A stretch of DNA of 64,000 nucleotides from Isoetes taiwanensis (taxonomy: Eukaryota > Streptophyta > Lycopodiopsida > Isoetales > Isoetaceae): positions 29,667,305 to 29,731,304 of the forward strand of contig JAJEKV010000004.1 in assembly GCA_021234155.1 (NCBI GenBank), written 5' to 3'. Position 1 is the first letter of the stretch, and the number at the start of each line of letters is the position of its first letter. Positions 1,853 to 61,330 of the stretch are shown here, in pieces. The position numbers were made by a program, and so were the translations under genes. A model generated the notes under the pieces. That model was not told the DNA's origin, made no database searches, and was given only the letters and a program-made list of their open reading frames with translations.

Positions 1853-2756
1853 TGTGACACTCCCTACATATACGGCCCCCGGCCATACACTCCATAGGAA
1901 ATCCCCCATCCAGTCCTTCGACTGCATGGGCTCTCTGTCTACCTCGCACTCCAGGGTGTTCCTAGTGCGAGAAGGGGACACGAAGGTGTCTTGCGCGCCC
2001 TTCTCCTATGGGCTCCTATAATAGCAGAAGCATAACCAATATCAGCACTAACAACAACAATACATCGAACTACCTCGAAGGGTAGCGCATTCATCCATCC
2101 ATAGATACAATAGAGATAAATATATGCCATAATACAGGAGAGCTCCTACCCAAGGCTCGGACTCATGGGAGGTAGACTGACGACTAGGCCACAAGATAGA
2201 GCAGACCGAGGCATAACAATGGCGGGGCTGGCTATAGAGAATGGCTAGGGTTGACCACTCCATCCGCCCCTCCTGTGCATACTTTGCAGATGGGCTAAAT
2301 CGGGCTCTGGCGTGAGTATGGCCTACCGGATACGCAATCTCATGGTATCACCCATCGAGACTACTCTGAGTTGCATCTTCTCGGTCCGATGAGGCAGGAA
2401 AGGTCGCATCTCTCTTCTTGGGGTCTAGAGGCTCCACGGGCGGCTAGAGAATCGTGGTGACACACGATTCTTACCCGACTGAACCCCCCAAAACAATAGC
2501 CAGGCCAACACCTGCAACTCTTGAGAGACAAGGTGACACCATTGCCCCAGGAGGTGTCGGACACATACCCGGCCCACTCGAAGTGACCGGCTATAGGCCT
2601 AGCCCGCTATGAGTCCCCAGTAGCCGCGTTCAGCAGGGACCTCCCTCCACTTTGCCTCTAGCCTCGTTATGTAGTGCTAAGTCACATCATAGCCCCTGTA
2701 GCCCGGTGGGTTCCTATGCACAGCCCGCATATAATAAGAACCAGGGATGGGTTCTG
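1853..2756 (-). repeat. E2 3' LTR, truncated
   Basis: This segment aligns with the first about 900 bp of the right LTR (44102-45641). Shared landmarks are TGTGACRCTCCCTAC, ACTCCATAGGAAATC, GCGAGAAGGGGAC and AATATCAGCACTAAC. Similarity stops at about 2756, just after a shared GGGTTCT; the remaining about 640 bp of LTR, including the CGTCACA end, is missing. Confidence 0.8.
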
Positions 2757-35426: not shown

Positions 35427-37110
35427 TTAATGCAACAGGTGACCATTTTTTTCTTGCCTCACGAAATCAACCAGAACCCGTTGTTCCACAATACCAAAGG
35501 CAGCGGGCAATGCCGTGTCGAGGATTAACTCGGGCACTATTTCAATTTGCTCCTCTGTCATCTCCAATAAAGTTGGAGTTTTCAAAACCTCCTCCAGGTT
35601 TGGAGTGTGCCTCTTCAACAGGCTCACATGGAAGACCTTATGGACTTTAAGATGGGCAGGTAAGTCGAGCTTGTAGGCTTGGCTCCCTACTTGCTCTAAA
35701 ATCTTGAAAGGTCCCGCCCACCTTGGAGCAAGCTTCTTATAATTGCCGATGTGAAGCTTCGCTTGCTTGACCTTGATCTTGAGCCAAACATTGTCCCCAA
35801 CTTGGAATTCTCTTGCGGTCCTATGCTTGTCAGCTATGCTCTTCTGCCGAGTCCTTGCTGCTAGAAGACATCCTCTCACTTCTTCCACAAGCTGCTGCAT
35901 ATCACGTGAGAAACTTCAACTTTAGACACTAGACTATGCCAAGTGCCTGGTGTCAAGCATGTGATAACCATTTGATCATAAAGGGGGACATTTCACATTT
36001 GAGAAGATTCTTGCTTGGTACTATTATACGGAAATTCTACCAAGTAGATATAGTCATCCCATTTAGATTGCTCCACACATAGTTCCTCAGCATATTTTCT
36101 ATGATTCAATTTGTGCGCTCCGTTTGGCCGTCTGTTTGGGGATGATAGGCCATGCTCATGGCCAACATGATCTGGATCGTGTTGAAGAAGTTCTTCTAGA
36201 AGGCACTTATGAACTTTGGATCCCTATCTGAAATAATTTCCCTTGGCATCCCATGCAATCTAAATATTTCCTTCGTGAAGAGCAAAGCGGTGTCCAATGC
36301 TGTATCCGTGGTTCGACATGGCAAAAAGTGAGCCATCTTAGATAACTTGTCGACTACTACCATTAAGGCATCATGGCCCCTTGCTGTTCTTGGGAGGCCG
36401 GTTGTGAAAGCCATGCTGACAACCTTCCACTTAGCTGTTGGCATTGCCAAGAGTTGCAAAGTTCTTGGAATTTGAAGTCTCGACCTTTGTTTGCTGATAA
36501 AGCTGACATTGTCGAATGTAGCTAGCTATCTCCTTCTTCATGCCAGACCAATAATAACTACTTCTTATCTTGAAGTAGGTTTTTATGAACCCTGCATGGC
36601 CGGCTATTGGGCTATTGTGAGTGTCATGAAGGATTAACTTCCTCACTCCTGATGATTCGGGGACTCAAAGTTTGTCCTTATGGTAGAGAAGATTTCCTTC
36701 CCTCTTATATCCTTTATAAGCTTCTCTTTCCTTGTCTGTCCTTGCTTCCTTGCAAAGACTAGCCCATATTTCCTTGAACTCCTTGCTTGAAGGCAAGACT
36801 TCTTCAATCTTCTTGCCGAAGTCGCTATGCAGTGTGGAGATGGCATTGCAATGAACTCGTGTCTCCAATGGCCTTCGAGAGAGAGCGTCCACAACCACAT
36901 TTAAATTTCTCGGCTTGTAGACTATCTCAAAGTCATATTCTTCGAGGAATTCCATCCACCGCCTTTGTCTCAAATTGAGGAGTGGTTGTGTAAAGATATA
37001 TCGGAGGCTCTGGTGATCTGTATCCAGCTGGAACTTCCTACCAAGCAGGTAGTGCCTCCAAATGCATAGGGCTCTCACTATATCCAAGAGTTCCTGGTCG
37101 TCGTGCTCTC
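35427..37110 (-). pseudogene. E2 pol remnant: RNase H and integrase
   Basis: Pieces in order from the right: RNase H and connection (TDHQSLRYIFTQPLLNLRQ, VVDALSRRP; 36643-37087); integrase zinc domain (HDTHNSPIAGHAGF...CQLY, second Cys of the last pair is Tyr; 36431-36646); integrase core (VVVDKLSKMAHFLPC, ISDRDPKFISAF; 36196-36459; YHPQTDGQTERTN near 36120); and C-terminal domain (VWLKIKVKQAKLHIGN, GPFKILEQVGSQAYKLDLP, VFHVSLLKRH; 35427-35900). Where E3 has its chromodomain this protein ends with VEQRVLVDFVRQEKNGH, so the chromodomain is divergent or lost. Gag, protease and reverse transcriptase are deleted. Stops near 36190 and 36080. Confidence 0.8.
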
Positions 37111-37526: not shown

Positions 37527-38941
37527 TCAATCCATTTGAGGTGGTGGAAGTGGAGGTGCTGTAGCCACGACGACCATCATTGGCACTTCCCTTAGGTGAC
37601 TACTGGCGGAGTCGAGGCTGTAGAGGACCACCGATCTTTTGAAGAGGATGATGTGATCTGTGTTGTCCCTCAACTTGGTGTGCTGGCCGAACCCTGAAAG
37701 TGCAATCAAGAGTGCACTATGGTCTCCTCCCCTCGTGGGCTGAACTCTTTGTGGAAGACTATCATCTGGCCCTGACTAAGGACTGCGAGGTAGTATCAAA
37801 GCGTCTTCCCCTTTTGGAATCCCGCTGCCTGCGACCCTGTGCCCTTCCTTTGAGCCGCTCCACCGTAGAGTGCTAGGAGGTCTTCATGGTCCCTCCACAT
37901 AGTGGTTGCACTGTCTAGGTTGATGCTGCTGGATGCCTCCCGCATACTTCGTGCTCGAACGGGTCGGCTAGAGCTTGGGCCCCTCCCAAGTTTGTAAAAC
38001 CTGCTTTGGATCGCTTGAAACTCCTTCTCTGGGATGATTAGCGGTTGTTGGTGATACAATTCCCTTATGTACTCATATGCGGCGGCGTCGGGCATCGTCT
38101 CGCCGGCATATGAGTGCCGGTCTGCTACTTCCCTTGGGGCTTCTTGGTATGAGTAGTCAATGAAGTCGCTCTGCTGTCCTTCTGCAGTCAGACCTAAGAG
38201 CTCGTCGATCCTGAGCCCTTTTTCTAAGCAGTATGGAAGATGGAGGATGTTAGGTGCAAGAATGTACTCCTCCCCTTCGATCACTATCGGAGATAGGGTT
38301 GTGATGTCAATAGGTGGTTCGTTGGCCCGCCTAGTGTCTTCATCATGCATTGATATTTGTCTCTCTATTATTGATACTTCCCTGCTCTCCCAATCTTGGT
38401 CGTCCTCCCTTTCCTGCTTATAGTCTTGCTTGATCTGAAGTGCCCCTGATGCAGTGCCGTGGTAGACATACTCTGTGGACTGAATCTCGTGGATCTGGTC
38501 CTGTTCTACTCTGGTGTTGGGTGGTGCAAGGTCCAAGGGTTGGATCAAAGGTTTCCCCACCTCTGTTGATTGCCCTGTAATGCATAAACAAATAATAGAA
38601 CCGCATGTGCCAAGACATACCTATGCCTGTGAGCCTTACACTCATATAATCAGGCATATTCTTCGTCCTATCCCACAACTGGCCGTTGACTCTAGATCCC
38701 CCGTCTAAGACTTGACTTAACGACTCCAAGGACATTCACTTGCCTCCCCTTGGGGGAAGACTGACTTCCCAGGTAAGACTTGTTGGTCATACTGGCATAC
38801 AATATCTGTGTAATAGGGGGTTCTAATCCAGGTTGCATGGAGGTCGAAGAGATGGTCAAAGACATGGAAGGCCTCCTCTGCAGGGACATCACAGATGTGG
38901 TTGGCACTATTGTACCATTCAACAAAGTTCGTGGGCGCCAT
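37527..38941 (-). CDS. E2 ORF2: element-borne gene of unknown function
   Basis: Starts at MAPTNFVEWYNSANH (ATG at 38939-38941), with a TATA box about 110 bp upstream. Includes DHLFDLHATWIRTPYYTDIV, a 254-codon open block (37796-38560; EGEEYILAPNILHLPYCLE), and a C-terminal block GFGQHTKLRDNTDHIILFK after a TGA near 37796. A GT...AG pair near 38640-38580 (GTAAGG to GCATTACAG) could be a short intron. The upstream gene of E3 (55799-57085) begins similarly (MARPTLQQWYVDGEHWD, then FD and YY at matching places), so I read both as one gene family. No known domain recognised. Confidence 0.5.
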
Positions 38942-39051
38942 TGAGCAGAGATTAAGGTAGAAAACGTTTGGGAAGGATTGACAAAGGTCTGGAAAATCGC
39001 CTAAGAGGATGAGAGCAAATTTGGTGAAGAGAAAATGGCAATTGAGGCCCC

Positions 39052-39059
39052 TTTTTATA
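39052..39059 (-). promoter_or_regulatory. TATA box of E2 ORF2
   Basis: TATAAAAA on the minus strand followed by GGGGCC, about 111-118 bp before the ORF2 ATG. E3 ORF2 has TATAAAACCCC about 84-90 bp before its ATG. The shared position argues that ORF2 is transcribed on its own, separately from the LTR transcript. Confidence 0.6.
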
Positions 39060-39568
39060 GACTAAGGCTACCTAGGTTTCCGTGCCCAAGACTCCTTGAG
39101 CAGGTAGACCTATGTTCTAAGGCTATGGATCTCCAAATTAGGTAACATGAAGTGCAAATCTAAGCAAAACAAGTCAAGAAACACTATATGGCAGTTGCTG
39201 GATCAAATTTCGACAAGTTTTGGTCAAACATGCTCGACTCGAGTTAGACCACGTGAAAGGCGTCTGCGTTCGGGACGCAGAGGCCATCGACGCGATCAGA
39301 ACCGAGTGGGTCATTTTTGGCAAAACTAGACATTTTCAAAAGCTACAAGACACTAAAATGCATGTTTGGAACAATTCTAGACTAATTAGCAACCTATTTT
39401 ATGTTAAGATGACATGAAAAAGTGCAATTATAGGTGATTCGAGTCAGATTGCGCGAAACGCATCTGCTTTCGCGAGCAAGGGCCATCGGTAGACCCGAGT
39501 GGGTTGACTTTGACATAAAATTTAATTTAAAGACGAAATTTTAAACTAGCATGTTATAGGATGTTGTA
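39060..39568. other. Upstream region of E2 ORF2 with imperfect repeats
   Basis: No gene. Two related segments at about 39238-39312 and 39440-39510 share GAGT-AGA, GCGTCTGC or GCATCTGC, GGCCATCG and CCGAGTGGGT. They could be upstream promoter elements of ORF2, or the start of Helitron H2; the H2 5' end is unresolved within about 39100-39750. Confidence 0.4.
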
Positions 39569-42381: not shown

Positions 42382-43523
42382 CTAGGGCTTCTCCTTACGG
42401 ATTCTCCTGGCCAGGTGGAGATCCTTGGGCATTATTGTCACCCTCTTCGCGTGGATGGCGCACAAGTTGCCCTCCTCGAAGAGCTGCACTAGCTCCGCCT
42501 CTGCTGCCATTTGCAGGGATCGGACCGTTAGGGGTGTAACCCTATAATCGGTCCGGGACTCCTGCATAATCTCCCGGAGGAGCCGCTCGAATGGCACCTT
42601 CCAGATCAGGAGATTAATGCACTGCTGGAAGTGCCTAATCTCCCGAAATACCCGGGCGTGCTTCGAATTAGGTCCATGGTGGACCTTCTTCAGAGGCTCC
42701 GGCCGTGGTGGTGGTGGCTTTGGCTGGTTCTTCGGCCTCCCACCCTTGACGTACTTCTATATGTTCTGCTTACAATATCGGTCAGTGTACCTCCTCCACC
42801 TGCGGAGGTATTCTTGGTAGGCCTTCTTTCTCCTCTGGAACTCGCGGTCCTGCTTCAGCATGAACTCACGTTACCTTTGGCTTCTTCACTACCTTCGGTG
42901 GCTTGGGCCACTTCGGGTAGGGTGGACGGGTGTTGGAGTTAGATGTTTCCCCAGTGTTCTCTTCGGGCTCATCCTCCTCTTGCCCGCCGCTTCCTTCTTC
43001 CTCGTTCTCCTCCTCGTCCTCCTCGTCGGTAGCCTCCTGACAAGGTTCTTCGATATGGACCGTCCCTCGAGGCCGATCTTGGTTCCTCTTGGACCTTTTC
43101 TCCCTCCGCCTATCCTCCTTCTCCCTCTCCCTCTTCTTCCTCCGCGTCCGCTCCTCTGGCCATTCAGCTACCTTCTCCTTGCCCTTCTTCTTGGTGGAGC
43201 CGACTTCTTGCCGCCGCCGCTCCTCCTCCTCCTGTTGCTTTCCTTCCTCCTGGCCGCCCCCCTGCTGATGCTCCTCCTCCTGGTTCGACGACGGCCAGCT
43301 GGGCTCGACGGTTTCACCTGTCCTTTGGGTAGCTCCCGACGAGCTACTCTGCACCCGCTCATGGGAGGCATGTAAAGTCTCGTCCGTCGATGCGCTCCTC
43401 TTCCTCCCTCCCGGGATTGAGGTGCTCTGGGATCTTCTTGCTGCTACCCGCTGCTGCTTTTGCCATAGAAGGAGTATGTCTATGGCTCCTATACTTCTGA
43501 GCTGTGCACTTGGTTCGGGCCAT
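42382..43523 (-). CDS. E2-borne histone H3 variant with a long insert in the tail
   Basis: Starts [20 protein letters not shown], matching the canonical H3 N-terminus MARTKxTA, with K4 and K9 kept but R8 changed to Q and S10 to Y. A long charged insert of over 200 residues follows ([17 protein letters not shown]; acidic [10 protein letters not shown]). Then comes an H3 histone fold: [48 protein letters not shown] and [20 protein letters not shown], ending EKP. Loop 1 has canonical H3 length, not the longer CENH3 loop. The insert replaces the K14-K27 region, so no second ARKS motif is seen. Frame shifts near 43440 and 42868 and a TAG near 42760 interrupt it. The histone fold, from about 42640 to 42382, is open. 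A TATA box lies 181-192 bp upstream. Confidence 0.85.
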
Positions 43524-44084
43524 ATCTTATGGTTAAGAAAATGGATTAGCTTAAGCTGGAGATCAAGAAAGAGATGTTTAGGGTGAGATAGGATGAATAG
43601 GATGCTAAAATGGAAGAGATACTCTTAGGGCTAGGAATATTATCCAACCATTAATAGCTCTATTAATTAGCCTCCCTCCCCCCCTTCCCCCCATTAAATA
43701 CACCTATATATATACTATATTAATATATGGTTACTACTTTATTGTAATTAGAAATTCGATTTTTTTTAATTGTTTGGGGTGTTAATTATGGATTTGCGCC
43801 ATTTTTCACCTGGGTCTCAGATTGGAATGATTCTTCGACCCATTTTGGGTGAAATTTGACGTTCATGCATAATTTCCACTCCAATTTTACTAGAATGTTA
43901 ATTTGTCTCATACTTTTCCTGCACCTAACAACTTACTCTAACTTTACAACCCCACTACTTGGGAGAAAAAATTTTCCTCCCATTTTCGAGGTTCAATAGT
44001 GGGATTTTCATCCCATACTCTATTAGGCCGGTTAGACTACTTAGCTAAGGGTTATAGTCGTGCTAGTTCTTGGTCAACCAAGAA
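43524..44084. promoter_or_regulatory. E2 leader with TATA box upstream of the H3 gene
   Basis: On the minus strand, TATATATATAGG (43704-43715) is followed by a G-rich run (43671-43693, Cs on the plus strand) and then the H3 ATG at 43523. Otherwise AT-rich, no gene. An independent H3 promoter is plausible but not shown. Confidence 0.4.
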
Positions 44085-44100
44085 CATGGCTCTGATACCA
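44085..44100 (-). promoter_or_regulatory. E2 primer-binding site, initiator tRNA-Met type
   Basis: TGGTATCAGAGCCATG on the minus strand, 1 nt from the LTR end at 44102. This is the standard plant Met-initiator primer site and fixes E2 orientation and its 5' LTR. Confidence 0.9.
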
Positions 44101-44101
44101 T

Positions 44102-45641
44102 TGTGACGCTCCCTACAAAATATACGGCGCCCGGCCGTTTACTCCATAGGAAATCCACCATCTGGTCCTTCGACCGCATGGGCCCTCCGTCTATCCTGCA
44201 TTCCAAGGTGTCCCTAGTGCGAGAAGGGGACAGAAAGGTGTCTTGTGCGCCTTTCCCCTATGGGCTCCTATAACCACGGAAGCATAAATAATATCAGCAC
44301 TAACAACAACAATACATCGAACTACCGCGAAGATAGCGCATCCATCCATCCATAGATACAATAGAGATAAACATATGCCCAAAAAACAGGAGAGCTCCTA
44401 CCCAAGGCTCGGACTCATGGTGAGGTAGACAGGCGGCTAGGACACAAGATAGAGCAGACCGAGGCATAACAAATGGCAGGGCTGACTATAGACAATGGCT
44501 AGATTTGACCACTCCATCCGCCCCTCCTGTGCAGACTTTGCAGATGGGCTAAATTGTGCTCTGGCGCAACTATAGCCTGCCAGACGTGCAATATCATGGT
44601 ATCACCCATTGAGACTACTCCGGGTTGCATCTCCCCGGTCTGATAAGGCAGGAAAGGTTGCATCTCCCTTCCCGGGGTCTGGAGGCTCCATGGACGGCTA
44701 GAGAATTGTGGCGACACACGATTCTTACCCGAATGAACACCCCAAAACAATAGCCAGGCCAACACCTGCAACTTTTGAGGGGCAGGGCGACACCATTGCC
44801 CTAAGAGGTGTCAGACTCATACCCATTCGAAGTGACCGGCTATAGGCCTAGCCCGCTATGAGTCCCCAGTAGCCGCGCTCAGCAGGGACCTCCCTCCACT
44901 TTGCCTCTAGCCTCGTTATGTGGTGCTAAGTCACATCATAGCCTCCGTAGCCCGGTGGGCTCCTATGCACAGGCCGCATATAATAGGAACTAAGGGTTCT
45001 AAACTAGGGGCATCACTAAGTAATGGCTACTAGGTCTCTACCCCCCTTCCCAATTCAAGAGGAGCAAACATGATCAACCAACATCACATATCCACATATA
45101 ATAATAAGAATAACATCTAAATCCAATCATATACACCTAACTTACAGTTAGGGTTCATTGATTAGGGTTCAAGATCTAGACTAAGGGTTCTAGGAAGGCT
45201 CTACTAGAGATACGAAATGCTAACTCATCTGGAGCCCTACTTGGGAACTCCCTCCTGCTCCCGGCGTCTCCATGGTCTTCAAGGTGGTCGAAGTAGCTCC
45301 CACTCTTACTGATGCATACACGCTTTGGGGGTTGTTGTGCTATGCTGTGCCACATAGACGGTTCTCAAAATGGAGTTTCGAGCACGAATAGGGTTTGGCC
45401 ATTTATAGATTAGGGTTGATGTCACCTGCCACGTGGCCAGGGTGCTTCCGTGTGGGGAGTGCCCAATAGGTTAAGGCCATGTGGAAATGGTCTAAGGTTG
45501 GCTAAGTTATATGAATAACTTAGTCATGCCCCCTATTGCCACTAATCTATGATATACATACAAGGCTATGGTGATAGACCTGTATAGTGATGGACCTGGA
45601 AATATACGTATTTATGGCATATATTTCCGGGAAACGTCACA
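44102..45641 (-). mobile_element. E2 5' LTR
   Basis: 1540 bp, TGTGACGCTCC at the left edge and GAAACGTCACA at the right, forming a 7-bp inverted terminus. Aligns with the truncated left LTR (1853-2756), and more distantly with the E3 LTRs (shared GGGCCCTCCGTCTAT, CATCCGCCCCTCC, GGTGGGCTC-TGTGCACAGG). Confidence 0.9.
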
Positions 45642-46984: not shown

Positions 46985-47824
46985 CAAATTTTGACAGGCC
47001 AGAGTGCTCAAGACAAGCAAGCACGGGAGTGTCGGCAGGTGGATCCATTGGCCCAATAAAATCCATTCCCCATTTGGTGAAGGGTAACGGCATGACAACT
47101 GGTATAATTTTTCTCGGCAGGATTGGGTTTCCTGCTTGCATATCGAATAGGCGTGTCAGTAAGAATCATATTCCTGGGAAAGAACAGCGCCGATGGCAAA
47201 GGCCAAGACATCAACATGGACATGAAAGGGTTTGTCCCATTGACGTGGAATAAGAACAGGAGCTTGAGTGAGCAGAACCTTTAGTTGTTGAAACGCTGCA
47301 TCTGCTTGGGGATTCCAAGCCCAAGCGGATTCGTCACCCGCGAGTTTATGAATGGGATCCGCAATGGCAACGAGTCTAGGAATGAAGGTTGTATAATAAT
47401 TTACCTGCCAAGGAATGAGCGTGTTTCCTGGATGGTTGAAGCTGCTTGAGCTTTGAGCAAGCAACCGATTTTTGCATGGTCCTGGTAATACCATCTTTAC
47501 TCACAATGTGGCCAAGAAGAACACCTGAAGTGACACAAAAAGTGCACTTTTCTGGAATCAAACTAATACCAGATTCATCACATTTTTAAAAAACTAACTC
47601 TAATTTGTCAAGATGATCATCCATGGAGTTGTAAGCAGAAAAATCATCTTGGAAGACTTGCAAAAACGCATTATCTTTCATGTAATCCTGAAAAACAGAA
47701 AGCATAATGCGTTGAACAGTAGAGGGAGAGTTGGATAATCTAAAAGGCACCACTTTGTAGGTAAAAGTGCCCCATGGCGTGGTGAATGTAGTTTTCAATT
47801 GATCTTCAGCTTTGATAGAAATTT
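46985..47824 (-). pseudogene. Outer gypsy reverse transcriptase (C-part), RNase H start and integrase start
   Basis: RT part: SIKAEDQLKTTFTTPWGTFT, VPFRLSNSPSTVQRIM and the catalytic FQDDFSAYN (47586-47824). Then VLLGHIVSKDGI, the connection and RNase H (PIHKLAGDESAWAWNPQAD, LTQAPVLIPRQWDKPFHVHVD), YASRKPNP, then abruptly the integrase start KWGMDFIGPMDPP. The end of RNase H and the integrase zinc domain are deleted. Frame shifts near 47480 and 47180. Confidence 0.85.
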
Positions 47825-49436
47825 TGTGACGCTCCCTGAACATATACGACCCTCGGACGTATACATACGGGGACTTTCCCCTCCCATGGCGACCAACTCG
47901 CCAGGAGCAGGGCCCTCCGTCTATTTCGGGCCATCTATAATATGATGCCCGAAAGAAGGACACGAAGGGGTCATTCGGCCCACGCCTTCAATGGGGCTCC
48001 TACGTCGCGGAAGCGTGAATACAAGGGTTAGCACACAGCATAAATCACGTATAAATAACCACCACGAAGGGTGGCATATCCATCCAAATACCAACGGCAA
48101 AGAATATGCATCTAAACCTAAGAAAACACCCCAAACCCATGGTTCTACCCCGTTCTGACTCAAAGTGAGGATCGACCGACGGCTAGGGCCTCAAGAGATC
48201 GCGACATGTAATCTTGACATGGCGCTGGCTGGCATAGAACATTGGCTAGGGTTGTCCACTCCATCCGCCCCTCCATTGCACACTTTGCGAGATGGGTCAA
48301 TTCACGCTATGGCGCCGCTATAGCCTTCCCGGAGACGCAGGGCTCGAGGCATCACCCCGCTGAGCCTACTCTGGGGTTCATGAAGTCCCCCGTCCGATGA
48401 GGCAGGTCGGGAAGCGTCCCCTTCCGTAATCACACGGTGGCTCCATGGGCGAAGCTAGAGAATACGTGCGCATCAGCGACCCCGCATCCGTGCAACTTAC
48501 TCGCCCTAAATCTACTCAAAGTGCAAGGTGCCCCATACGGGTCACACCTTCCCACCTGTGGAGTGTCAAACCCATACCCGCCCCTCACGACTGACGCTAT
48601 CATCGCCCTAGCTCGCTATAGGAGTCCCAGGAGCCTTTTATGTTCGTGCAAGACCCCACCTCCACTTCACCACTGTGTTCCTTGTCTGGTGCTAAGCCAG
48701 TACCATAGCATCTATGACCCGGTGGGCTCTTGTGCACAGGCCGCATTTAACGGGATAATACAGGGCTCTATCTAGGAGCATACTACAATAAATAGCCTCA
48801 GAGGTCTCTACCCCCCTTAATTCCCCATTTCCAGAGTAACACTAGGCTAACAACCACCAATCCATCCATTACAAGCAAAACCAGAATCGAAATATATAGA
48901 GAACCTACCTTTACAATCAAGGGTTAGTTCCTACGAGTAAACACAGAGAGAATAGACCAACAACCCAAACAGGTGCCCGCTATCCTAGAATTCACAACTA
49001 CACTAGCCACCCACCTGTATTTCGGCTCGACCCGTTGTCATTGGGGATCTCCATCTGCTTGGTCTTGGTGTTTAGCTTGTGTGAGATTCAGGGTGGCGCT
49101 CAGCTCTGGTCACAAGGGTGGCGCTCCACTGCTCAAGGTGAGTTGTGGCTGATATGGGGGTGGTGATCCACCCTATTGACCCCAATTAGCATTATCATGC
49201 TAACCAATCGAGGGTGGCCACGTGGCGCCTTCCCAAACCATAATTAGATTAATTATGGTTTTTAAATATTAGTTCCTTAATTATAGGTTATTATTGTCAA
49301 TAATTAAATTAGCATAGCTAATTTAATCCCTTTTTAAGTGAACCACCTAGGTTCCCATACCCCATGTGGCGTATGTATCCCTGGTGACGTGTCAACATAT
49401 TTATACTTATACCATATAAATACTTGGAACGTCACA
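47825..49436 (-). mobile_element. E3 3' LTR
   Basis: 1612 bp, starting TGTGACGCTCCC and ending GGAACGTCACA. On the minus strand TATTTATA-like text lies close to its start (49395-49425). No gene inside; short ORFs here are chance. Confidence 0.9.
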
Positions 49437-50029: not shown

Positions 50030-51450
50030 CTACCCCCCTACCGATTCTCGGCGAATCAAGTCTTCAAGCTTACCGACGGGAGCGGGGTTGATAGCATCGT
50101 TGATGGTGCGGCCTTGAGATTCGCGCATGAAATCCGGATAGTGCTTCTCAAGATCTGTTTGCATCACCCACATAGCATCCCTCGGCAAGTGTTTCCATTT
50201 GACCAAGTATTGTAACATTTGACTCCTTCTGGTCTGTTTATAAGCTCGATCAAGAAGAGCTTCATGCACTATCTCTAGCTGTTCCTCTGTCATTTCGGGA
50301 GGGTTGGGGTTTCCAAAACCTCCTCTCGGATCAGGGTGTCTTTGCTTTAGAAGACTCACATGAAAAACCTTGTGGATCTTTAAAGCGGGTGGCAAGTCCA
50401 GCGATATGCTTGCTCCCCAACACGTTCAGTGATTTTGAGCGGTCCAGCCCATCCGGGTGCCAACTTCTTGCGATTACCAATCTTAAGCTTGGCTTGTTTT
50501 ACCTTAATCTTAAGCCAAACCGATTCACCCACTGAAGACTCGTGGGGTCCCCGTGCTTATCTGCTACACTCTTTTGACGACTGCGTGCAGCTAGCAAGTA
50601 ACCACGTACTTCCTCGACCAAAGCTTGCATCTCCAGGAGGAGTTGTTGAGAAACCTCCACTTTCGACACGGGGTTGTGCCATGTGTCAAGAGTAAGGCAT
50701 TGATAACCATAATTTATCATGAAAGGAGACATTCTGGAAGACTCCTGTTTCATACTGTTATAGGCAAACTCTACTAGATAAATATAGTCAGCCCATTGGG
50801 ATTGCTTACTCCACACATAACTTCGTAGCATATCCTCTATGATACGATTGGTACGCTCTGTTTGACCATCCGTCTGAGGATGATAAGCTGTACTCATAGC
50901 AAGCTTGGTTTGTATGGTGGTGAAGAAATCTTTCCAAAATGCACTTACAAATTTGGGATCTCTGGCAGATACAATGACCCGTGGCATTCCGCGGCAACCT
51001 CAAGATCTCTTTTGCAAAAAAGAAAAGATTATCAAAGCGGTGTCCCGGGTGGTGCGACATGGCAAGAAATGAGCCATTTTTGACAATTTGTATCGACCAC
51101 GACCATTAATGCATCATATCCACGAGAGAATGCGTGGAAGGCCCACTATAAAATCCATGGTTATCACTTCCCACTTAGCGTTGGGCACATCCAAAGGTTG
51201 CAATTCTCCTAGAGTCCTTAATTGTTTCGCCTTGGGTCGGCGACATACTTGACAATCGCTTAATGTACTGGCAATGTCCTTCTTCATCGAAGGCCAAAAA
51301 TAACTGGAGCGGATTTTAAAGTAGGTCTTCATAAAACCGCATGTCGGCTATATAGGGCTGTTTAGCGTGTCATGGAGGATTAACTTACGCACCTCTAAGT
51401 ATGAGGTACACACAACTTGTCCTTGTGATACAACAAATTGCCCTCTTTCT
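50030..51450 (-). pseudogene. E3 integrase with C-terminal chromodomain
   Basis: Core pieces: KWEVITMDFIVGLP (first Asp), VSARDPKFVSAFWKDFF (second Asp) and YHPQTDGQTERTNRIIED (Glu), with D-35-E type spacing. Zinc domain C-pair CQVC is visible near 51250. The C-terminal GPFK-type domain is followed by KIHKVFHVSLLKQRHPD and a chromodomain, SQMLQYLVKWKHLPRDAMWV and TDLEKHYPDF (50080-50240). Chromodomains of this group bind methylated H3 tails and direct integration. Frame breaks near 51000, 51100, 50540 and 50405. Confidence 0.85.
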
Positions 51451-52960
51451 TATATGACCGGAAAGCGCCACGTTCTTTATCCTGGCGTGCCTCCTTATTT
51501 AGACTACTCCAAATTTCATAGAACTCGGGATCGGTGGCTAAAGTTTGTTCTATCTGTTTACCAAACTCACTTGTGAGTGTCTAAATCGCATTACAATGGG
51601 TTCGGGTTACCAAGGGATGGCGTGATAATGCATCCGCAACCACATTGTGCTTTCCGTGCTTATACATGATCTCAAAATCATATTCTTCAAGAAATTCCAT
51701 CCATCTCCTCCCGACGGAGGTTGAGATTGGGTTGGGTGGTCAAATATCGGAGACTTTGATGATCTCAGGTCCAATCGAACCTTCTACCAAGGAGGTAGTG
51801 TCTCCATATTCGCAAAGCGAACAACAACAAGCAATTCCTGGTCATGGGTAGGATATCGCTGTTTTGTCTCATTCATCTTCTTTGAATCATAAGCAATAAC
51901 CCTCCCTCCCGCATTAGAACCCCACCGGTGGCAATTTTGTCGGGCATCGGGCTACTAGTTTATCCTTATCGATCGGGCAACGTGAGAACGGGTGCCGAGG
52001 TTAAGGCATCTTTAAGCCGCTGGAAACTTCCCTCGAACCTTAGTCTTCAAAGGCTCCATCCAATCCTTCACCTTCTCATGCTTGGTAAGATTTGTAAGAG
52101 GGGCTGCAATCCTTGCAAAATCCTTTTACAAATTTTCGGTAATATCCTCGCTAATCCCAAGAAATCATGGACTTCTGAGACATTTCCTCGAATAGGCCAT
52201 TCCCTTACAAACCTCTATCTTTGCGCAGATCTCAGAGTAATTCCCTCCTGCTGAAATAATATGACCCAAGTAATCAACCTTTGGAGTGGCAAACTTGCAC
52301 TTAGAGAACTTGGCAAAAGCTGATGACGCCTTAACTTTTGTAGAGCCAATTTAAGATGTTTCTCATGCCCCGTAGGGTCTTACCGTAGATGAGAATATCA
52401 CAAAGAAAATAACAACAAAGTCATCCAAGTATTGTCGGAAAACATCATTCATCAACCGCATAAACGCTATGGGGCATTAGTTAATCCGAAAAGGCATAAC
52501 GGTAAACTCATAATGCCCATATCTAGTGCGAAAAGCAGATTTATGGATGTCTTCCTCTTTAATTCTTATCCGATGGTATCCCGAAATAAGATCAATCTTT
52601 GAGAAATACTTGGCCCCTTGCAACAGATCCATCGGATCATCCGCCTTGGCAAAGCATAGCGATTTTGATAGTATGCTTGTTAAGTTGCCGATAATCAATA
52701 CACATTCTCAAGGAGCCATCCTTTTTCTTCACAAAAAGAATAGGGGCGCCAAAGGGCGAAACGCTAGGTCGAATAAAACCTAGGTTTAGCAGCTCTTGAA
52801 GTTGTTTCTTAAGCTCGCGGCTCGGGAAGACTCATACATGCACGGGCCTCTTTGGTGGGTTTAGCACGGCTCTAAAGCTATCTCACATTCTACCCTCTAA
52901 AAGGAGGAAGCTTCTGGATCTCGTCTGGGAAAAGATCGCTAAATTCATGGAGAATACTGG
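51451..52960 (-). pseudogene. E3 reverse transcriptase and RNase H
   Basis: [41 protein letters not shown] and [11 protein letters not shown] (52477-52698), then VFRQYLDDFVVIF. The catalytic DD region near 52395 is disturbed by a small indel. RNase H and its tail: [29 protein letters not shown] (51600-51720). Split over several frames. Typical chromovirus order. Confidence 0.8.
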
Positions 52961-53620: not shown

Positions 53621-54802
53621 TAACATATGGGCAATCTTCGCATGAAGTGTCCAGGCCTCATACACTGTGAACATGCCTTATCCCGGCAAATGTTTTCCTC
53701 GCCTCTTTAGGAATGGATTGTAAGAGGTTTGAACTTCCTTACCAAAGATTGTTTCGCTTTATCGGCGTGCTAAGGTGCTTAATTTCTTCTCCGGGCGGCC
53801 GTAAGAGTTCTGGCTGAGAGGCCCCGGACTTGAGAGCGGGGTTTGTAAGGTGTGGACGGCCATGGTCGCGTAGTAAGGAGCGGGACGCGGATATCGATTC
53901 CTTGGTATGTCCTCCTCGAGGCTCAATGCTTTAGCCTCGGCCGCAGAATCGATTGGGTCGATGGCCTTAACCATCCGCTTTGACCGATGGTGCCAAACCC
54001 TCAATATAGCCCTCCACCGCCTCTTTCTCATTCATACCTGTAGATACGCCTCAAAGCGATAAACTCATCCGTAAGCCCTCAGACGACATACTCTTCTCGC
54101 TCCAACCTCGTAGAAAGTTCGGATCTGTTGGCATTTATGTGCACGGGCACATAATGCGATTTGAAGGCCTTGGCAAACTTCTGAAGTTGCATCTACTCGC
54201 CCGTGATGTTTGGCTCGCATAGCCCTTCCACCAAACTGGGGCGCAGCAGGTAAGGTTTGTGGTGGCAACCTTTCCTGTATCCTTCTCTGTCATACCATAG
54301 GACCTGCCGAACTCCTTCATTTCGTCCAGCCAGGATTCGGCATTCAAGCCGCCTCTAGATTTCCCATCAAACTGGGCCAATTTCCTATTCTTCCATATAC
54401 TAGTTATGGCTGTATCAACTGTCTTGCGGTACTCCTTATCTCGGCGCTTTGCATGGCCACCAGATGATGCGGATGATTCAGATGACACTGAAGTGGCAGA
54501 CTTTGAGGAGGTGGCACTGTCCCTGGAGGAGCTCCGTCGGTGTTTAGAGTGGGACCTCTTTAGCACGGGTACAGGACTGGTTCGTGGTGGGGACGGCTGC
54601 TGTGCAGGTGGACTAGGCAGCAACGGAGGTAACTCCGGTGCATCCTGTTGTACATGCTGTGGTGGGTTAGCATGCAAGACGTAGGCCTGCAATTCGCCTA
54701 ACTATCTTTTCATCAGCATCAATTCTTGTTCGGGTGTTAATCGACTTGCATTTGAGGGTGGCTGCCAAGCGGCGGTGCGTGCCCCATCTAAATTAAACAT
54801 AA
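53621..54802 (-). pseudogene. E3 gag with CCHC knuckle
   Basis: Starts at about 54799 (MFNLDGARTAAWQPPSNAS). One TAG near 54703 precedes LGELQAYVLHANPPQHV. A Pro/Ser-rich stretch (LPPLLPSPPAQQPSPPRT) and the capsid KLAQFDGKSRGGLNAESWLD and MTEKDTGKVATTNL follow. The CCHC knuckle CSQCMRPGHFMRRL(C shifted) is at about 53628-53675. Frame breaks occur in the capsid near 54200. Confidence 0.75.
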
Positions 54803-57340: not shown

Positions 57341-58013
57341 TCATCTAAGATCCCCTCGGATCCTTCGTGCCAAGTGAAGGTCCTTGGGCATAATAGTAAC
57401 CCGCTTCGCATGTATGGCACACAAGTTGGCGTCGCTCAAAAGCTCAATCAGGTATGCCTCGGCAGCCTCTTGTAATGCAAGGACCGCAAAGGCTTGAAAC
57501 CGCAAGTCGGTCTTGAATTCTGGCGATCTCCCGACGAAGTCATTTGGAAGGGAAGCCGACGGATCAATGGCTCCGGTAGTCTTCGATACTTGGCATTATC
57601 TCCCGGAGAGCTACCGTGCCAGGTCGGAACCTGTGGGGCTTCCGTGGCTTAAGGGTCGCTTTGAGCGACGGAATGGATTTACCTCCTGTCGAAGGATGCT
57701 TTGTGCGCTCTACGATCAACTCCCTTCTCTGAGCCGATGTCTTCTTGGCGATCGCGGCATCCTGTTGCAGTCGGGTCTTGTAGTGCACCCCACCCCTAAC
57801 CGGTCTAGATTTGGTCCTTTTCAGTCTCCGGTTACCCGGCCCGGTCGATTGCTGTGGGTTTGCTGATGGGTCCATGTTAACAGGGTTTGTCTGGGACTCA
57901 ACGTTCTGAGCCGCACCTAGGTCCTGCTGTCTATCATCAAAAGTCGCCATTGCTCCTCCCTGGCGATGGCCTAGCTGCTCCCTCCTCTGCTTCGTGCTCA
58001 CTTTGGCGGCCAT
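57341..58013 (-). CDS. E3-borne histone H3 variant with N-terminal extension and no K9
   Basis: Starts [15 protein letters not shown] (ATG at 58011-58013). A non-H3 extension of about 100 residues comes first, then a shortened H3 tail: RTK at 103-105, STGGK at 108-112, [17 protein letters not shown] at 123-139. Between RTK and STGGK only HP remains where H3 has QTARK, so K9 is missing; the ARKS around K27 is also missing. The fold continues [51 protein letters not shown] and [20 protein letters not shown], ending GDLR then TGA at 57341. Loop 1 has canonical length. Frame shifts near 57585, 57545 and 57525 lie in short GC-rich sites. The [10 protein letters not shown] ending is shared with the E2 histone (canonical KDIQLARRIR). 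Confidence 0.85.
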
Positions 58014-58800
58014 GGGAGTCTTCGCCTTCCTTTAGGAGCCGCCTCGTTCTTCAGCCCTAGCCTCTCTCCAAACGCACTTGAGTACTGGCCAATCTCCAGA
58101 TGATCTTGGTCCCGGCCGTGCCCGCGATATCTTCTTGGATGGATTCTAGATGGCATTTGTTGAAAACGAAGGACATTTTCAAAAATGAAACTATTGAGGC
58201 TTTCATTCCAAGAAAAGGTGGAAGGTTAAAGTATTCTGGTAGGTAAGTACACGACCCCTCCCCAAATAGTAAAAGCGATCCATCCTTAGGTCCGGTGGAG
58301 TGGGCTATTTGGTGCAAGTCTTCTAGTCGGGCGGATGCATGATCCTCCGAGCTTCGTTCCGACTAAGCTCCTGTGGTCTTCATCCCGGTCGGGCGAGGAT
58401 AAAACTTAACCACAGCCCATGCACGGTCCGGCTGCTCCACAAGAGTGTAGTCCCCGCCTTCATTCAACTTGAGGAGGAAGCTCGTTGAAGTGGAAGATAG
58501 GGTAGGGGACTCCGTCGCCCCCGACAAAGTGCTTGACAAAAAGGTTAAGAATGGTATCTATCATAGGGTCTTCCTCAAAGAAGATGCTCGACTAAGACGA
58601 CAAACAACCGATATATATTCGGTTTCTTGGATCTACTGGTCCGCCTTGAAGCCAAGATGTCGTGACTTTATAGGGACAACAAGGGAGAAAGGAGAAAGGA
58701 GGCTCAAGCAAGGCGGGATCTGCTTGAAAGGGGTAATCGAGGGCACCGAGGTGTAGGGGGTGTGCAAGGAAGACGCCGAGGTCCGCTATGGCGGATGTGG
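58014..58800 (-). pseudogene. Unknown reading frame between the E3 leader and H3
   Basis: Open pieces on the minus strand: SFLLKLNEGGDYTLVEQPDR then AWAVVKFYPRPG (about 58380-58480), HQIAHSTGPKDGSLLLFGEG, CTYLPEYFNLPPFLGMKASI and FNKCHLESIQEDIAGTAG (58057-58317). They look like one protein broken by indels, but no domain is recognised. E2 has no counterpart in this position. Confidence 0.35.
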
Positions 58801-59351: not shown

Positions 59352-59363
59352 GGCTCGATACCA
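59352..59363 (-). promoter_or_regulatory. E3 primer-binding site, Met-type with one indel
   Basis: TGGTATCGAGCC on the minus strand. The canonical site reads TGGTATCAGAGCC, so a CAG is read as CG, a further example of the CAG-specific differences in this window. Confidence 0.75.
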
Positions 59364-59364
59364 C

Positions 59365-60974
59365 CGTGGACTCCCCGAACATATCGACCCTTGGGACGTA
59401 TACATACGAGGACTTTCCCCTCCCATGGCGACACCAACTCGCCAGAGGCGGGCCCTCCGTCTATTTCGGGCCATCTATAATATGATGCCCGAAAAGAAGG
59501 GTTCTGAAGGGGTCATTCGCCCACGCCTTCAATGGGGCTCCTACGCCGCGGAAGCGTGAATACAAGGGTTAGCACACAAAGATAAATCACGATAAATAAC
59601 CACCACGAAGGGTGGCATATCCATCCAAATACCAACGGCAAAGAATATGCATCTAAACCTAAGAAAACACCCCAAACCCATGGTTCTACCCTGTTCGGAC
59701 TCCGGTGAGGATCGACCGACGGCTAGGCCTCAAGAGATCAGCGAGCGTAATCTTGACATGGCGCTGGCTGGCATAGAACATTGGCTAGGGTTGTCCACTC
59801 CATCCGCCCCCTGTGCACACTTTGCGGATGGGTCAATTCACGCTATGGCGCCGCTATAGCCAGGGGAGACGCAGGGCTCGAGGCATCACCCCTGGCGAGC
59901 CTACCTGGGGTTCATGAAGTCCCGGGCCCCGATGAGGCGTGTCGGGGAAGCGCCCCTTCCGTAATCACGGTGGCTCCATGGGCGAAGCTAGAGAATACGT
60001 GCCGCATCGGCGACCCCCGCGATCCCACATACCCGACTTACTCGCCCTAAATCTACTCAAAGTGCAAGGTGCCCCATACGGGTCACACCTTCCCACCCAG
60101 GGAGTGTCAGACCCATACCCGGCCCTCTACGTGACCGGCTATCAGGTCTAGCTCGCTATAGGAGTCCCAGGAGCCTTTTATGTTCGTGCAAGACCCCACC
60201 TCCACTTCACCATTGTGTTCCTTGTGGGGTGCTAAGTACCATAGCATCTATGACCCGGTGGGCTCTTGTGCACAGGCGCATTTAATCGGGATAATAGGGG
60301 GCTCTATCTAGGAGCATACTACAATAAATAGCCTCGAGAGGTCTCTACCCCCTTAATTCCCCATTTCCGAGTAACACTAGGCTAACAACCACCAATCCAT
60401 CCATTACAAGCAAAACCAGAATCGAAATATATAGAGAACCTACCTTTACAATCAAGGGTTAGTTCCTACGTAGTAAGTAAACACAGAGAGAATAGACCAA
60501 CAACCCAAACAGTGCCCGCTATCCTAGAATTCACAACTACACTAGCCACCCACCAGTATTTCGCTCAACCCGTTGTCATTGGGGATCTCCATCCGCTTGG
60601 TCTTGGTGTTTAGCTTGTGTGAGATTCAGTGGTGGCTAGGCCTCTGGTCACAAGGGGGTGGCTCCCACCGCTCAAGGTGAGTTGTGGCTGATATGGGGTG
60701 GTGATCCACCCTATTGACCCCAATTAGCATTATCATGCTAACCAATCGAGGGTGGCCACGTGGCGCCTTCCCAAACCATAATTAGATTAATTATGGTTTT
60801 TTTATATTAGTTCCTTAATTATAGGTTATTATTGTCAATAATTAAATTAGCATAGCTAATTTAATCCCTTTTTAAGTGAACCACCTAGGTTCCCATACCC
60901 CATGTGGCGTATGTATCCCTGGTGACGTGTCAACATATTTATACTTATACCGTATAAATACTTGGAACGTCACA
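59365..60974 (-). mobile_element. E3 5' LTR
   Basis: About 1610 bp, matching the 3' LTR along its length. Left edge slightly blurred (CACCGTGGACTCCCC against TGTGACGCTCCC). Right edge GGAACGTCACA, then AATTT. Confidence 0.9.
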
Positions 60975-61330
60975 AATTTGATTGTAGCCAGAGAAGCCAT
61001 CCATGAAGGAGTACATCTCGTGGCCTGCTACTTCTTCAAGAACCAGATCTGTGAAGGGTAGCAAAAAATGATCTCTTTTCGTGGCCATGTTGAGCTTTCT
61101 GTAATCCACGCGAACGCGTATTTTGCCATTATGCATGAGAGCAATAACAATTGGGCTCACACACTCAGAATGTTTGACCTCATAGATAAGTCCAGCAGCC
61201 AGAAGTTTATCAATTTTGGCTTTGACACGATCATGATAATTGGAATTGAGCCTGTACTATCGTTGCTAGATGGTGCATGCATTTGGTTTGGTAGGAATGG
61301 TGAGTTCCCCCAATTCTTTCTTGATTCCTC
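60975..61330 (-). pseudogene. Outer gypsy reverse transcriptase, N-part
   Basis: Encodes SPIVIALMHNGKIRVRVDYR and KLNMATKRDHFLLPF, then HEMYSFMDGFSGYNQI, the RT fingers and the first catalytic Asp region. Broken by the E3 insertion and continued at 47824. Confidence 0.85.

Follow-up and report, generated by a model that had tools for sequence, protein, structure and literature searches.

Two chromovirus-like retrotransposon families of Isoetes taiwanensis encode histone H3 folds under strong purifying selection

The window, i.e. the complete stretch of 64,000 nucleotides analysed, contains two LTR retrotransposons on its minus strand, E1 and E3. In agreement with the sequence-only reading, E3 was identified as an insertion of its own, with paired LTRs and the 5-bp target site duplication (TSD) AATTT on both sides. 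It is a chromovirus, i.e. a Ty3/gypsy LTR retrotransposon with a chromodomain, and consists of the following parts:

47820..47824, no strand: left TSD AATTT
47825..49436, minus strand: 3' LTR (left copy), starting with TGTGACG and finishing with CGTCACA, ends intact
50033..50425, minus strand: C-terminal integrase piece and chromodomain (PF00385, E-value 1.8e-5)
50266..51809, minus strand: RNase H to integrase, DNA 68% identical to positions 35534-37063 of E1
54138..54701, minus strand: gag piece, labelled by reading and backed by the continuous gag-pol frame of the relative L014
55802..57217, minus strand: ORF2 pieces; a single frame of ~480 codons in the relatives L016 and L020
57344..58781, minus strand: stretch matching the entire H3 open frame of the relative L023 (amino acids 6-484) in several frames (tblastn 5e-106)
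57350..57520, minus strand: H3 fold, C-terminal 57 codons (H3 residues 77-133)
57567..58031, minus strand: open piece with linker and H3 tail region, ending at a 10-residue stretch shared with E1
59352..59363, minus strand: primer-binding site (PBS), 1 base shorter than the tRNA-iMet-type PBS of E1
59371..60974, minus strand: 5' LTR (right copy), inner end damaged
60975..60979, no strand: right TSD AATTT

On the minus strand the order inside E3 is H3 region, ORF2 pieces, gag, protease, reverse transcriptase (RT), RNase H, integrase and chromodomain, which includes the Ty3/gypsy order of RT, RNase H, integrase and C-terminal chromodomain; the domain labels were given partly by reading of the frames and of the relatives. 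The chromodomain scored 25.0 bits, 0.1 bit below the PF00385 cutoff of 25.1. The match to amino acids 6-484 of L023 counts residues upstream of the first methionine of that frame. The flanks of E3 (47589-47987 and 60948-61256) read as RT of another, older retroelement. The H3 of E3 had been placed at 57341..58013. H3 is indeed found there, but only its C-terminal part, the L023 match extending from 58781 to 57344. Likewise, the claim that E3 carries a diverged H3 stands for the presence of H3-like sequence, but this copy is without an intact H3, because the fold is split over three frames. A Pfam scan gave no match for the tail piece of E3 in the window. For E1 the following parts were found:

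1853..2755, minus strand: partner LTR, incomplete, K2P distance of 0.114 to the 5' LTR; TSD not readable
35430..37108, minus strand: RNase H and integrase pieces
37799..39061, minus strand: ORF2 pieces (37799-38620 and 38720-39061)
42385..42756, minus strand: H3 fold, 124 codons open (PF00125, E-value 7e-29)
42869..43624, minus strand: piece of an acidic/basic spacer
43494..43523, minus strand: H3 start, 8 of 10 letters of MARTKQTARK (runner-up in the window 5 of 10)
44088..44100, minus strand: PBS TGGTATCAGAGCC, exact
44102..45641, minus strand: 5' LTR

As claimed before, H3 occupies the equivalent place in both elements, between the PBS, which we take to be of the tRNA-iMet type in E1 and E3, and the gag-pol part. 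Frames from gag to RT were not seen for E1 in the window. Nested between E1 and its partner LTR, at positions 7700-33500, are tandemly arrayed units of ~5350 bp, which mostly agree at 91-99% and contain long frames resembling helicases (by reading, Helitron-like). AlphaFold modelled the E1 fold poorly (mean pLDDT 61), and nothing informative was obtained from a protein search with the ORF2 of E1 or from Rfam and tRNA scans. E1 and E3 share ~68% identity in the RNase H-integrase DNA and ~63% in the LTRs and are therefore old relatives. Between the two window copies, dN was 0.25 for the C-terminal half of H3, 0.24 for the best RNase H piece and 0.39 for the pooled pol pieces, the latter including frame noise. 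At codons for identical amino acids, silent differences were counted in 23 of 37 cases for H3 and in 157 of 263 for pol. The 24-residue core of H3 is identical at the protein level (dN 0), with codons differing at many silent positions.

The LTRs of E3 had been called near-identical, which is fair after allowing for sequence noise. Over 1566 aligned columns they are 96.9% identical, with 49 substitutions and 46 gaps; blastn identity with gaps is 92.6%. Gaps amounted to 3.8 per 1000 columns at a GC content below 0.40 versus 45.7 above 0.55, and 25 of the 46 had an opposite gap within 12 nt. The older LTR pair of E1 showed 7 gaps in 894 columns, none of them compensated, and three comparisons of tandem units were intermediate, with 35-58 gaps per ~5300 columns, of which 7-13 were compensated. 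Between E3 and L023, 62 gaps, 54 of them of a length not divisible by 3, were found in 2031 columns, and 3-24 gaps in five pairs of relatives. The indels of E3 are probably consensus errors in a young repeat, the alternative being true decay of this copy. Because the LTRs show similar noise, the frame breaks are probably sequence errors and, if so, tell little about the lineage. A simple decayed pseudogene lineage was set aside for the H3 of E3 on account of the LTR noise and of relatives possessing open frames.

Such relatives are numerous. A profile search with PF00125 in the 1.66-Gb genome yielded 150 scored loci, for which we counted by eye 15 top loci of host-type H3, 135 remaining loci dispersed on many contigs, and a stop in 5 of the 150; many had long open frames of up to 494 amino acids. 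The eight host loci that were read (L001-L008) encode a complete H3 beginning with MARTKQTARKS. Searching the genome with the fold of E1 gave 150 scored E1-like loci with 78-100% identity and open frames of up to 429 amino acids, and by reading about one quarter of them had stops within the match. The first-look counts of 8705 (PF00125), 9670 (E1 fold) and 8340 (P0044, a metagenome H3) were rejected as copy numbers, being loose candidates and not copies. E1 and E3 each represent, by one damaged copy, a large chromovirus-like family which encodes H3 between the PBS and ORF2-gag-pol.

Twenty E3-type loci were picked from the high scorers, mostly for long open frames, so that their frame integrity is biased, while their silent divergence is unselected. 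All 20 had a frame open through the fold (212-494 codons), with at least 424 codons in 15. The E3-type protein of ~400-460 amino acids is composed of an N-terminal domain of ~200 amino acids, a low-complexity linker, a tail-like stretch and the C-terminal H3 fold. PF00125 was detected above cutoff in L021, L022, L023 and L028 (all E-values at most 2.9e-41); the N-terminal domain of L023 had no Pfam or PDB match at E-values up to 1. The subfamilies (L021/L024/L027; L022; L028; the rest) are widely different. A protein search with the E3 tail returned 12 proteins with a histone domain, whose matches comprised 10-46% of the query. For the E1 type, 30 loci (L029-L058) were sampled, and L037 and L046 were dropped since the motif was not parsed, leaving 28. 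Their protein begins with the first residues of H3 (MARTK[CQ]T.RK), followed by a long acidic/basic spacer and a more diverged fold. In 19 of the 28 loci, one of them window E1, some frame starts with M[AV]RTK (MARTKQTYRK is an example from the family); by reading, position 9 is Lys in 16 of them. The canonical H3 tail (ARTKQTARKSTGGK...ARKS) is not retained beyond about its first nine residues in the E1 type, and ARKS occurs in 1 of 20 E3-type and 0 of 28 E1-type frames. The single exact ARKS lies in the tail region of the fetched frame L022:2441-3872 (VARKSGSQYK), possibly a remnant of the H3 K9 motif. A PBS with at most 1 mismatch was found upstream in 15 of the 20 E3-type loci, in 13 of these 15 with the LTR end 8 nt before it, and a PBS was present in 17 of the 28 E1-type loci. 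In both families H3 is followed by ORF2 of ~480 amino acids (window E1 and E3; L010, L016, L020, L024, L027), for which L016 and L024 gave no Pfam match near any cutoff. In L014 a long gag-pol frame directly follows H3 where others have ORF2, and ORF2 may therefore be absent from that copy.

The sequence-only reading had proposed that H3 was kept by selection inside the elements, and this was borne out. Pairwise NG86 estimates on codon alignments, restricted to pairs with dS from 0.05 to 1.5, gave median omega values of 0.047 for the E3-type fold (median dN 0.027, dS 0.587) and 0.061 for the E1-type fold. Usable were 82 of 190 pairs for the E3-type fold and 286 of 351 for the E1-type fold, from which loci with fewer than 120 open codons had been excluded; with 107 E3-type pairs, more than half, saturated at silent sites, the E3-type value comes from the closer pairs. 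For the remainder of the E3-type protein, omega was 0.147 in the N-terminal domain (38 of 153 pairs) and 0.155 in the tail region (60 of 190 pairs). Both folds are under strong purifying selection, and selection on the remaining parts of the E3-type protein is weaker but still clear. Omega values of 0.05-0.06 at a dS of 0.6-0.9 in two families, relatives with long open frames and damage in E3 that resembles the noise of its LTRs make it highly improbable that H3 is a passenger, carried along by chance and decaying. What speaks for a passenger is that E3 is broken in several places in the window, that a frame break and a stop precede the fold in E1, that stops are as frequent among the scored E1-like loci as given above, and that transposon-captured H3 in Pseudocercospora fijiensis is described as dead except for the original gene (PMC6710886).

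Relative to canonical H3, E1 is changed at 16 of 31 positions in 77-107 versus 2 of 24 in 108-131 (Fisher test, 0.0011), and E3 at 8 of 31 versus 2 of 24 (p-value of 0.16, not significant). Of the 24 positions from 108 to 131, 23 (E3-type) and 21 (E1-type) have the host residue in half of the loci or more. These residues, which we take to be the H3:H3' and DNA-contacting parts, are conserved in other H3s too, as expected for working H3s. Changes of the E3 type cluster at 86-107 (7 of 22 positions), and positions 41, 86, 87, 101, 102, 107, 124 and 135 are changed in both types; positions 87-90 presumably steer histone chaperones. Given that residues 108-131 are retained in spite of the replaced tail, the H3 of the elements would most likely still pair with host H4 and enter nucleosomes. 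A role in the particle, with the H3 fold serving as a DNA- or RNA-binding packaging factor and not in chromatin, is quite unlikely given that the residues of the H3 tetramer are kept. H3 alone needs H4; a gene for an H4-like partner was not noticed. For packaging one can adduce that H3 precedes ORF2 and gag as the first gene of the element and has basic and acidic low-complexity stretches, and that giant viruses are described as organising their genomes with histones of their own.

Whether the two families go back to one capture of H3 was addressed from several sides. A 10-residue stretch in the place of plant KDIQLARRIR had been put forward as a sign of shared lineage. It is present in both window copies, but, by reading, in none of the 20 E3-type relatives; KDLHLA occurs in 7 of the 120 other H3 matches listed and again in none of the 20, so the stretch was rejected as a derived character common to both families. 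Both types often have L124 (16 of 20 E3-type, 27 of 27 E1-type loci), and I101 and L124 are the majority residues of both. At ten sites both window copies differ from canonical H3, and three of these share the residue (chance ~0.035); among the three, E77 is the residue of the host itself and none of the 20 E3-type relatives has H125. In a fold tree with relatives, the E3-type clade (support 95) lies among canonical H3s and the E1 type forms a separate clade (100). Forcing both together costs 2.26 log-likelihood units (p-AU 0.456, a quick tree with few columns). Earlier trees with the window copies only gave p-AU values of 0.086 and 0.113 for the E1+E3 constraint and grouped E1 with the metagenome H3s P0102 and P0044 (96/92, 96/88); of the 132 proteins in the H3 sets, 4 were dropped in one and 2 in another.

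Of the earlier statement, the part that H3 was kept by selection is upheld; with a joint clade at p-AU 0.456, the part that it was not picked up twice is not established. We moderately favour one capture because of the same slot, the related ORF2 and the MARTK start found in E1-type loci and in L028. Across families, ORF2 gave a best blastp E-value of 3e-6 (12-sequence set; 27% identity over 145 amino acids) and hhalign E-values of 3.5e-5 and 3.2e-4, with probabilities of only 45 and 39%. Somewhat unlikely are two captures, in which the E3 type took a canonical H3 and the E1 type, perhaps by replacement in the slot, an already diverged variant, each then selected. They agree with the placement of E3-type H3 among canonical H3s, with residues Y82, V84, T85, P86 and T88 which E1 shares with P0102 (four of them with P0044) besides grouping with both, and with the lack of detectable homology between families outside the fold (hhalign probability 0.1%). 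Against two captures stand the compatibility of the joint clade once relatives are added, the slot, ORF2 and MARTK start named above and the shared I101/L124. Weakly in the same direction points a search of the Isoetes genome with P0044, where the 15 host H3s came top, the 135 lower rows were not individually read, and no E1-like host gene was recognised. P0044 and P0102 have the odd loop-1 motif YRV[TA]P.T in common with E1-type H3, and P0044 has two extra loop residues. A viral origin of this motif was discarded, as scans of viral_contigs with P0102, P0044 and the E1 fold gave no encoded relative.

Congruence of the H3 and RT trees had been suggested as a check. Between subfamilies the two were found incongruent in the four loci with H3 and RT in one element. 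RT was readable in 7 of 20 E3-type loci (6 of 12 fetched RT pieces and L014, with only 37 RT codons in the piece) and in none of four E1-type pieces. A continuity check left L023, L024, L027 and L028, from three subfamilies, with H3, ORF2, gag and RT colinear. L010 was not retained in support of an exchange of modules, since its ORF2 is separated from the paired pol by a second LTR and leader. This pol may therefore belong to another element, and the L010 pairs, with the two smallest p-values, were dropped. The same arrangement of H3 and ORF2, then a second LTR and leader, then a pol without H3 was seen in L010, L077 and L059 and reads as a nested or deleted neighbour element. Comparing fourfold sites, differences in the H3 fold versus RT were 26/36 versus 8/32 for L024-L028 (p-value of 0.0002), 25/34 versus 12/33 for L023-L027 (0.003), 23/36 versus 10/32 for L027-L028 (0.009) and 20/31 versus 10/33 for L023-L028 (0.012), while the within-subfamily pair L024-L027 showed 12/46 versus 7/33 (0.79). 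Along the element, in automatic pieces partly in overlapping frames, these four pairs and L023-L024 had fractions of 0.62-0.82 in H3/ORF2; the zones of gag and protease gave 0.28-0.58 and 0.23-0.40, respectively, and RT-RNase H gave 0.36-0.50. For L024-L027 the profile was flat (0.16-0.28). The upstream LTR/leader DNA of L023 and L028 is 74-84% alike, more than the silent sites of their H3; for L024 versus L028 a match of this region was not found. By silent sites the H3-ORF2 cassette is older than the adjoining gag-pol in this small sample of four loci, most simply because cassettes were exchanged, and such an exchange is supported.

Our overall explanation, to which we assign a probability of about 0.6, is that of two selected H3-bearing chromovirus families whose H3 acts as a chromatin-entering variant displaying the N-terminus of the element. 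In nucleosomes, the element H3 would display the N-terminal domain (E3-type) or the spacer (E1-type). The displayed part would tether the chromodomain-bearing integration machinery to chromatin, a tentative proposal; alternatively, at somewhat lower probability, the element H3 might make chromatin that host silencing marks less well. Marking or tethering would be within reach of an element that brings an H3 together with a chromodomain reader. The ARTK..RK tip is what H3K9-type chromodomain readers bind; it is kept by the E1 type and mostly not by the E3 type. Tethering would fit the E1 type better and silencing evasion the E3 type. As E1-type proteins retain K4 and in most cases K9, a general evasion of silencing by absence of K9 becomes less plausible. 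For the replaced E3-type tail no homology to the H3 tail was detectable (hhalign probability 1.4%); the loss of particular marks is therefore only suggested and was set aside as a firm claim. Slightly short of even odds, we see here a long-lived retrotransposon superfamily with its own chromatin-entering H3s, as tether or silencing shield, in which an old pool of H3-ORF2 cassettes is reshuffled among younger gag-pol parts in the manner of an arms race.

Few proteins are as conserved as host H3, which is the substrate of transposon silencing. As large families encode a modified H3 under strong selection, a core chromatin protein appears to be employed here by a genomic parasite in a version of its own. 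If true, a retrotransposon lineage keeping and diversifying its own H3 would be a parasite-side chromatin player, histone-level arms races would become testable, and the scored loci (135 and 150) would provide naturally occurring H3 variants by the hundreds whose tails have been replaced. Centromeric CENH3/CENP-A resembles the element H3s in being a divergent H3 whose long N-terminus evolves rapidly and which is altered around loop 1 and helix 2. CENH3 has a longer loop 1 than H3, but loop 1 of the element H3s has the canonical H3 length in both families, without extra residues (by alignment for E1 and by frames read against host H3), and a CENH3 origin of the E1 type was set aside on this loop length. 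Giant viruses are also selfish elements encoding histones; as described, Medusavirus has the full set of four core histones and Melbournevirus has doublets of H4-H3 and H2B-H2A, whereas here H3 was the only histone seen, and it has a large N-terminal extension. In the fungi Pyrenophora tritici-repentis and Pseudocercospora fijiensis, hAT DNA transposons captured H3, so that there too an H3 sequence of the host travels and multiplies with a mobile element (PMC6710886). These are DNA transposons with terminal inverted repeats and a transposase, while E1 and E3 are LTR elements with LTRs, PBS and RT instead. The P. fijiensis copies are reported as RIP-inactivated and many Pyrenophora copies as potentially active; in the available sections of that paper neither fusion to a new domain nor long-term selection within the element is described (PMC6710886), whereas here H3 is a selected gene of the element. 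With chromoviruses the elements share LTRs, a tRNA-iMet-type PBS, gag, protease, RT, RNase H, integrase and a C-terminal chromodomain (PMC3350952); they differ in possessing two extra genes, the H3 fusion and ORF2, between PBS and gag. The chromodomain of the chromovirus MAGGY reads H3K9 methylation (PMC3350952), and unlike MAGGY the E1- and E3-type elements additionally bring their own H3. A search with few terms of titles and abstract beginnings in the open-licence PMC literature found no LTR element with a histone gene. Chromoviruses with accessory genes and transposon-borne H3 are already known, and there is a strong case that the elements described here are more than a variant of these.
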